Shown in pieces: positions 19,911-48,125 of a stretch of DNA of 64,000 nt. The DNA is from an uncultured Bacteroidota bacterium. Its GTDB lineage: Bacteria > Bacteroidota > Bacteroidia > JABEUT01. The translations under genes were made by a program, and so were the position numbers. How positions within the stretch are numbered: the first letter of the stretch is position 1; each line of letters opens with the position of its first letter. The stretch covers positions 1-64,000 of the forward strand of contig CAIPDV010000046.1 in the NCBI GenBank assembly GCA_903863935.1, given 5' to 3'. The notes below the pieces were generated by a model. The model was not told the DNA's origin, did no database searches, and was given only the letters and a program-made list of their open reading frames with translations.

Positions 19911-20066
19911 GCTAAAGCCCTTCCTGAAATGTAGGTATTTTTCACCCCGCCATAAATGGCGGGGCTAATGAATGAACTCCTGCTCAAATGTTTTTCATTC
20001 ATTAGCCACGGCTTTTAAGCCGTGGACAGGATGGAGAATCCTAAGTTCTGAGGGCTTTAGCCCTTA
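19911..20066. repeat. REP-type composite repeat with TAAA-loop hairpins
   Basis: The stretch holds CCCCGCCATAAATGGCGGGG (19945-19964), inverted CTAATGAATG/CATTCATTAG (19965-19974, 19996-20005) and CCACGGCTTTTAAGCCGTGG (20006-20025), and ends in GAGGGCTTTAGCCCTT (20050-20065). Removing the 1522-bp element restores AAGGGCTAAAGCCCTT at the left side, giving a symmetrical unit. No gene is seen between 19803 and 20156. Confidence 0.75.
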
Positions 20067-28060: not shown

Positions 28061-28088
28061 GGTTGTAAATGTTGCCATGACCAATTTA

Positions 28089-28249
28089 AATTAGGCTAAA
28101 GCCAAAATATAGTTCACTTTTTTATCCACGACCTAAAGGTCGTGGCAATTGCAAACTCTTTCCAATATTGAGTGGGGGCTGTTTTAGTTGCCACGACCTT
28201 TAGGTCGTGGATAGATTGACCTCCAGAATTTTGGCTTTAGCCTAAATTC
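28089..28249. repeat. REP pair (BIME) upstream of the RAYT gene
   Basis: Two hairpins CCACGACCTAAAGGTCGTGG (28126-28145 and, inverted, 28191-28210) are flanked by TTAGGCTAAAGCCAAAAT and its inverted copy. The whole unit is symmetric, as in bacterial interspersed mosaic elements. The gap between the ligase gene and the transposase holds nothing else except the promoter at 28267. Confidence 0.88.
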
Positions 28250-28266
28250 ATCCTAATGAATTTATT

Positions 28267-28274
28267 TATCTTTG
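28267..28274 (+). promoter_or_regulatory. Promoter -7 box of the RAYT gene
   Basis: TATCTTTG matches TAnnTTTG, 22 bases before the ATG. Confidence 0.55.
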
Positions 28275-28296
28275 CTATAATTATAACCTACTTATC

Positions 28297-28725
28297 ATGC
28301 CTTATTGCAAACTAATGGTTCATGCCATTTGGTCCACCAAAAATCGTAACCCAATTATTGGGAAAGAGCTGAAACCACTTTTATTGCAACATATAAAGGA
28401 AAATAGTTTCAAAAAATATATACATATTGATTCTCTTGAATGTGTTTCAAACCATATTCATTTGCTTATATCTCTTGGAGCAGACCAAACAATTGCAAAG
28501 ACAATAGGATTGATAAAAGGCGAGTCATCAAATTGGGTTAATAAGCAAAGTTTTAGTCGCGTAAAATTTGAATGGCAGGAAGAATATATAGCTATTTCTG
28601 TAAGCCCCTCAGTAATTGATAAAGTTCGTGTTTATATTTCGAGACAAGAGGAGCACCATAAAAAGAAAACTTTTGCAGATGAATATGATGAGTTTATTAA
28701 GGCAAGCGGTATTGTGTTAGGCTAA
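28297..28725 (+). CDS. REP-associated tyrosine transposase (Y1/IS200-like)
   Basis: The 142-residue protein is a full-length Y1 transposase domain: the HUH motif in VSNHIHLLISL, EWQEEYIAISVS, and the catalytic tyrosine in VYISRQEEHHKKKTF with the closing ADEYDEFI. Such domesticated relatives of TnpA handle single-stranded hairpins of REP elements. Four REP hairpins in two mirrored pairs flank the gene, the arrangement of a REPtron. Its own stop codon lies in the outer arm of the downstream REP unit, so gene and repeats have moved or evolved together. Confidence 0.92.
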   Translation: MPYCKLMVHAIWSTKNRNPIIGKELKPLLLQHIKENSFKKYIHIDSLECVSNHIHLLISLGADQTIAKTIGLIKGESSNWVNKQSFSRVKFEWQEEYIAISVSPSVIDKVRVYISRQEEHHKKKTFADEYDEFIKASGIVLG

Positions 28726-28935
28726 AGCCAGAGCATTTGGGCTTATCAATCCACGACCTAAAGGTCGTGGCAACTAAAACAGCCAAAGTTCGATTTCAAA
28801 AGGAAGTCCTAATTGCCACGACCTTTAGGTCGTGGATTAGAATAAAAAAGGAAATTGGCTTTAGCCTAACAATTTTCTTTTAGGCCAAAGCTAATACAAA
28901 GGGGTTTGGCTATCCACGACCTAAAGGTCGTGGCA
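28716..28935. repeat. REP cluster downstream of the RAYT gene
   Basis: Hairpins CCACGACCTAAAGGTCGTGG occur at 28751-28770, inverted at 28816-28835, and again at 28914-28933. The outer arms TTAGGCTAAAGCC (from 28718) and GGCTTTAGCCTAA (about 28856-28869) close the first pair. No gene lies in this stretch. Confidence 0.88.
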
Positions 28936-28949
28936 ACTATAATGCAAGG

Positions 28950-48090: not shown

Positions 48091-48101
48091 GAATTTTCCA
48101 G

Positions 48102-48125
48102 TTGCCACAACCTTTCGGCCGTGCG
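48102..48125. repeat. Degenerate REP copy
   Basis: TTGCCACAACCTTTCGGCCG matches the RAYT-linked REP TTGCCACGACCTTTAGGTCG with three changes. It sits beside a terminator. Confidence 0.5.

Follow-up and report, generated by a model that had tools for sequence, protein, structure and literature searches.

A REP-producing layout around a Y1 transposase gene of the IS200-like side in an uncultured Bacteroidota bacterium

The window studied here is a stretch of 64,000 nucleotides (64 kb) from an uncultured Bacteroidota bacterium, and between positions 28,071 and 28,937 it holds a compact array of hairpins and one transposase gene. The 20-base hairpin CCACGACCTAAAGGTCGTGG has exactly five exact copies in the 64-kb window, all of them around the Y1 transposase gene. 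When up to three mismatches were allowed, shuffles of the window gave a mean of 0.01 matches, compared with 10 rows observed, in which each copy is counted on both strands. A sequence-only reading of this DNA had described five hairpin copies around an intact transposase gene, and this description was confirmed by the five exact matches, by the open reading frame of 142 aa and by its match to Pfam Y1_Tnp (80.7 bits, cut-off 23). The features of the array are as follows.

28071..28082, + strand: possible left-end remnant of the third unit, GTTGCCATGACC, picked out by eye
28091..28148, + strand: right half of the third unit, with inner motif (28091-28105) and REP copy 1
28126-28145, + strand: REP copy 1, exact match, in the right half of the third unit
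28187..28774, no strand: unit 1, gene-bearing, with the same order of parts as gene-less units elsewhere
28191-28210, - strand: outer REP hairpin, copy 2, exact match, left end of unit 1
28231..28245, no strand: left inner motif of unit 1, TTGGCTTTAGCCTAA, from repeat comparison
28297..28725, + strand: TnpA-Y1 transposase gene, intact, 142 aa, with the Pfam Y1_Tnp match
28717..28730, no strand: right inner motif of unit 1, TTAGGCTAAAGCCA, from repeat comparison
28751-28770, + strand: outer REP hairpin, copy 3, exact match, right end of unit 1
28812..28937, no strand: unit 2, gene-less and REPIN-like, from repeats, fold and comparison of units
28816-28835, - strand: outer REP hairpin, copy 4, exact match, in unit 2
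28914-28933, + strand: outer REP hairpin, copy 5, exact match, in unit 2

Comparison of direct and mirrored repeats placed a second, smaller palindrome, the inner motif GGCTTTAGCC, next to every hairpin of the array. Unit 1 is organized as a GTTG foot, copy 2, an inner motif, the gene, an inner motif, copy 3 and CAAC, which is the mirrored foot; the stop codon of the transposase falls within the right inner motif at 28717..28730. Unit 2 runs in the order ATTG, copy 4, an inner motif (28855-28869), a degenerate mirrored inner motif (28880-28893), copy 5 and CAAC, and its fold as single-stranded DNA (28812-28937) reached -42.7 kcal/mol with a z of -11.6. A decayed third unit is represented by its right half, to which copy 1 belongs. 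The sequence-only reading had paired copy 1 with copy 2 and copy 3 with copy 4, each pair being mirrored and having outer arms that match. The geometry was correct, in that 28088-28108 mirrors 28228-28248 and 28715-28730 mirrors 28856-28871, but these pairs were rejected as functional units because gene-less pairs elsewhere run (-) then (+). Since the fetched pairs have this order, with GGCTTTAGCC and its mirror image between the hairpins, one unit comprises copy 2, the gene and copy 3, and another comprises copies 4 and 5. The array can therefore be read as a half unit followed by a gene-bearing unit and then a gene-less unit.

In its AlphaFold2 model (mean pLDDT 88), the protein is a HUH-Y1 fold with intact catalytic residues. 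The closest solved fold to this model was the TnpA of ISDra2 (Z 14.6, rmsd 2.1 over 107), followed by the TnpA of IS608 (Z 13.8, rmsd 1.8 over 106), and the E. coli REP transposase 4er8 came behind both of them (Z 11.1). The HUH pair H53/H55, W93 and the catalytic-type Y113 lie in columns that are invariant over 50 sequences. The HUH site reads NHIH in the window protein, compared to the DH[IV]H listed for TnpA-Y1 subclass 1.2. Around the tyrosine, the protein carries Y113-x3-Q117-E118-x-H120-H121, that is, Y---Q--HH, which is the signature of subclass 1.2 in the available text of Quentin et al. (2018, PMC6006769), where the REP entry of the subclass is 'no'. This signature was found in all 84 homologues usable in our tree, the window protein included, and in none of the seven class 1.1 (IS200/IS605) or four class 2 references.

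The hairpin array itself would fit a classical class 2 RAYT/REPtron that had been transferred into Bacteroidota, because such genes are flanked by mirrored REP pairs with dispersed intergenic copies, and TT[TC]A loops like those described below occur in some class 2 REPs too (table of Nunvar 2010). The sequence-only reading had indeed named the gene a RAYT of the known type, but this identification was not supported. The window protein scored 26.9 bits against NCBIfam REP_Tyr_transpos, below the cut-off of 80, and 54.9 bits against transpos_IS200, for which the cut-off is 55. By an E-value criterion instead of the 80-bit cut-off, 39 of the 50 aligned homologues match REP_Tyr_transpos at 1e-5 or better. 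In the tree, the four class 2 references, including E. coli RayT, fall on one fully supported side and all 84 homologues on the opposite side, separated by long, fully supported branches. The signature is Y---Q--HH, not Y---NP, and the foot at the locus is GTTG or ATTG, not GT[AG]G. We rejected a classical RAYT on the score and the tree position, and we consider the chance that this explanation is right to be almost negligible.

Outside the window, the hairpin is dispersed. In line with the sequence-only reading, the hairpin sequence CCACGACCTNNAGGTCGTGG has 20 copies in the source genome, five of them within the window, and the copies form mirrored pairs; the 13 sites in the source genome, counting the window locus, all lie outside the listed open reading frames. 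In the fetched DNA of the source genome and of its relatives G005 and G003, we found 22 gene-less units, every one with a left end followed by a right end in the same mirrored order. Their length is 87-167 nt, mostly about 115-140 nt. Both inner motifs are present with at most two mismatches in all 22 units and are both exact in 16 of them. Sequence conservation of the units starts abruptly at the A[A/G]TTG foot; outside, only a T-rich bias is left. Units like 28812-28937 have the layout of REPINs, being two mirrored REPs with a short spacer that are dispersed and foldable. The fetched DNA also contained 24 unpaired hairpin matches, a number that counts array copies 1-3, ends of other gene-bearing units and two weak matches in the window, at 20005 and 48104, which resemble another family and a decayed copy. 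At 48101-48125, a decayed REP left end, GTTGCCACAACCTTTCGGCCGTG, directly precedes a strong terminator-like hairpin that has a T run.

The hairpin accompanies the gene across genomes. In the genus sample of 11 genomes, which also makes up the family and order samples, the four genomes whose homologue reaches at least 74% identity had 20, 12, 9 and 1 hairpins, and the seven remaining genomes had 3, 1, 0, 0, 0, 0 and 0. G010 has an 80% homologue and a single exact hairpin. G004 (three hairpins) and G008 (one) are without a close homologue, and both genomes are less than 62% complete. Of the 247 genomes in the class sample, nine have a homologue at 62% identity or more, and eight of these nine carry the hairpin; among the 238 others it was found in nine (Fisher p 7e-10). 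It is thus neither rare outside the locus nor equally common without the gene, either of which would have spoken against the sequence-only reading. In four genomes of the class sample from outside the genus (G017, G077, G135 and G068), two hairpins bracket the homologue at a spacing of about 520-620 nt. G200 carries a 62% homologue and showed no such hairpin or inner motif adjoining the gene. The nine genomes with hairpins and without a homologue at this threshold are G224 (1 copy), G140 (3), G102 (1), G056 (5), G104 (5), G165 (4), G213 (3), G013 (1) and G243 (6). Homologues of 51-58% identity are present in G102, G056, G224, G243 and G013, and the copies listed for G104 and G165 are all of a TTAA-centred variant. 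This variant, CCACGACCTTAAGGTCGTGG, has a fully symmetrical centre and was seen as single dispersed copies in G104, G165, G135, G068 and G003. Being dispersed, intergenic, arranged in mirrored pairs and strongly tied to the gene across the 247 genomes of the class, the hairpins support the earlier view that this is a REP-producing layout.

To characterize the ends, we used the loci of 80 out of 257 relatives, 58 of them at 47% identity or more to the window protein and 22 at 36-43%, and we labelled them types A and B by this 47% line; one locus, L102, is labelled B and yet lies outside the B group in the tree. Type A is not established as a clade, because the class 1.1 references fall weakly among its members, on a long branch. 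Within 250 nt of the 58 closer homologues, a perfect hairpin of 8 bp or more was found in 26/56 upstream and 40/55 downstream flanks, so that the upstream hairpin is missing at 30/56 loci; the controls gave 24/1427 distant windows and 16/127 distant non-coding stretches. Most of these hairpins lie 50-70 nt from the start codon or 50-70 nt from the matched gene end. Among the 65 nearest hairpins, the foot read from outside inwards is ATTG, GTTG, ATAG or TTTG in 49 and GTAG in one, and the centre is TTTA or TTCA in 55. The palindromes therefore have a polarity. The inner motif was present in 35/57 upstream and 47/56 downstream flanks, compared to 8/2359 in the control, and it is nearly constant, with 74 of the 82 found being GGCTTTAGCC and six being GGCTTCAGCC. 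A further 24 homologues, among which species of the first set may recur, had it upstream in 21 cases and downstream in 20.

The outer hairpin varies from group to group, for example CCACGACC, CCTCCAGAT and CCAACATCT in Flavobacterium, and CCACGCCC and CCACAGGC. With shared ancestry left in, its distance tracks the distance between the proteins (Mantel r 0.35, p 1e-4, 38 loci), and the two sides of a locus differ at 1.43 of 9 positions on average, compared to 2.98 for shuffled sides (21 loci).

The 22 divergent relatives (36-43% identity) appeared to have a second end design. None of their 22 upstream and 22 downstream flanks contained the inner motif. What was seen instead is a short hairpin and, after it, a GGTAG-type tail, on the outside-in strand at 12/22 loci and on the other strand at 5/22, and this signature was found in 0/406 control windows. 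Support for the type B design is weaker than that for type A.

Seven Y1 genes were counted in the source genome, and the other six are at most 52% identical to the window protein. Two of them, on contigs C22 and C102, are of type A and have different outer hairpins with the same inner motif. The other four, on C45, C49, C64 and C121 (loci L025, L027, L029 and L030), are type B by sequence, and each has its own short hairpin family, such as GCTCCGTAGGAGC with the tail CCTGTTTGTAG. Between two same-strand genes at 19945-20062 of the window there are CCCCGCCATAAATGGCGGGG, which is identical to the hairpin by the type A gene of C102 (L028 1854-1873), a GGCTTTAGCC at 20053 and a third hairpin near 20005; these are probably dispersed copies of other REP families. 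On source contig C93, a hairpin of the C102 family lies within a CCACGACC unit (L197 3912-3931), so that REP families are nested, and the extra length of this unit may be due to the hairpin inside it.

The placement of the units bears on the possibility that the hairpins serve as bidirectional terminators or stabilize RNA between convergent genes, with the transposase merely nearby. Ten of the 13 source sites lie between convergent genes and three between codirectional genes, whereas only 6 of 40 gaps in the window are convergent (binomial p 1e-6), and at the site of the source C62 unit G005 has a different, terminator-like hairpin. Such elements would not be expected to form a standard two-part unit at set distances from a gene, to be associated with that gene across genomes, to change along with its protein or to be missing from the site in relatives. 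We therefore give this explanation little chance. The accumulation in convergent gaps may reflect a preference during insertion or selection after insertion.

One clean empty site was obtained. The source genome has a gene-less unit at C37:33264-33400, between convergent genes; G010 and G004 lack it in the matching gap, and 10-20 nt link the conserved flanks there. The junctions are not exact because a short repeat adjoins the unit, and we read the difference as an insertion on the basis that the empty state is common to the two relatives. The source C62 unit was rejected as a second case, since the gap in G005 was too diverged and G010 has about 1 kb of other sequence between the flanks. The window locus offered no comparable empty site, as in none of the seven relatives checked was its upstream neighbour found beside the downstream gene. 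Four congeners (the source genome, G005, G003 and G010) have the gene-bearing unit among unrelated neighbours, and outside the source genome the orthologue of the window's downstream gene sits on other contigs in them. In G010 (contig C132, L165), the gap by this orthologue holds two further palindrome families, CCACCGATGAAATCGGTGG and CAACCCTGAAGGGGTTG.

These unrelated positions are also what an ordinary insertion sequence of the IS200 group would produce, with an autonomous gene and ends and with the gene-less units as internally deleted, MITE-like derivatives. The class 1 fold and sequence of the protein, and the nesting of the gene exactly between the halves of a unit, agree with such an origin. 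On the other hand, each type has one copy per genome, and near-identical gene-bearing copies were absent from the source genome, where the next Y1 gene is only 52% identical. The gene-less units far outnumber the gene. The ends here are mirror images of each other, while those of the IS200 group are strand-specific left and right ends with their own guides, according to the available text of PMC8266576. We regard an ordinary insertion sequence as possible, although rather unlikely.

We suggest instead, with a probability of about three in four, that the locus is a REPtron on the IS200-like side of the Y1 family, in which a single-copy TnpA-Y1 gene of subclass 1.2 lies within mirrored two-part ends and its transposase disperses gene-less units. 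Followed from its outer side, each end consists of an A[A/G]TTG foot, then the specific REP, whose 9-bp hairpin has a loop of TT or TC, then roughly 20-30 nt of AT-rich spacer, and last the nearly constant small palindrome GGCTTTAGCC. A TnpA dimer would bind the end hairpins while they are single-stranded. By analogy with IS608 and class 2 enzymes, as treated in the available text of PMC8266576, Tyr113 may cut the single strand close to the A[A/G]TTG foot, becoming linked to the DNA at the cut; the foot may guide the choice of the cleavage site and the hairpin would be the recognition element. The gene-less mirrored, REPIN-like units would then be moved or copied to new intergenic sites. The variable outer hairpin perhaps gives specificity, and the inner motif is perhaps read by a feature shared by the family. 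Cleavage and mobilization of the units by the transposase are thus inferences.

From the sampled, non-cyanobacterial members, we would give an even chance to the wider proposal that the genes of subclass 1.2 make up a large family of REP producers in Bacteroidota and Ignavibacteriota that has been overlooked and that acquired REPs on the IS200 side separately from the classical RAYTs. It would comprise two designs, type A with an exchangeable outer hairpin and a GGCTTTAGCC core and type B with a short hairpin and a GGTAG tail, and one genome could have several systems side by side, each with its own hairpin. Such a family would provide a second lineage for testing the way in which a transposase and a small population of genomic repeats become tied to each other. 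Because the inner hairpin is constant and the outer one varies, specificity could be swapped in a clean test, and the family may explain the origin of some of the hairpins between Bacteroidota genes.

Among known systems, the TnpA proteins of IS200/IS605 elements (IS608, ISDra2) are closest to the window protein in structure and sequence, and they are likewise single-domain HUH-Y1 enzymes. Those insertion sequences are multi-copy and have separate left and right hairpin ends, whereas the ends here are mirrored and the gene has one copy. TIRtrons, as described in the available text of Di Nocera et al. (2013, PMC3733652), also combine a tyrosine transposase gene (TIRYT) with inverted repeats at set distances that are long and in part self-complementary, and some of these repeats form families as here. 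They differ in their shared motif GGGGWSAS and in their host groups, and no GGCTTTAGCC end is described for them in that text.

The class 2 RAYT/TnpA-REP REPtrons and REPINs of E. coli (rayT), Pseudomonas and Stenotrophomonas have these features of the layout in common with ours: a Y1 HUH transposase with one gene copy, mirrored hairpins, gene-less pairs between genes and a foot tetranucleotide 5' of the hairpin. However, our system belongs to a different Y1 branch, its foot is mostly ATTG, GTTG or ATAG and not GTAG or GTGG, it has an extra, nearly constant inner palindrome, and its gene lies within one unit. It has about 20 copies, compared to the high numbers reported for the class 2 REPs of E. 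coli. In the portions of the literature covered by our search, to which parts of PMC2817692, PMC8049555 and PMC12306157 also belong, no paper linked subclass 1.2 to REPs or described the inner motif, and the sole match to GGCTTTAGCC in Nunvar 2010 was part of a Haemophilus REP stem.

Subclass 1.2 itself is characterized in the available text of PMC6006769 by a low copy number, by proteins that are short (median 148 aa), by DH[IV]H and by occurrence in Bacteroidetes and Cyanobacteria. The window gene resembles it in Y---Q--HH, its 142 aa, its HuH motif, its low copy number and its host in Bacteroidetes. In the same text, 1.2 is not among the subclasses named as having REPs, and the automatic REP search used families with a GTAG or GTGG foot; we suggest that the REPs of subclass 1.2 were overlooked because the search demanded this GT[AG]G foot. 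The REP-making layout in the window is real, although its gene is no classical RAYT, and it occurs in a subclass for which REPs were said to be absent. This contradicts the published statement, and in contrast to the 'no' given for the subclass in that text, most of the close members sampled here are flanked by REP-like ends.
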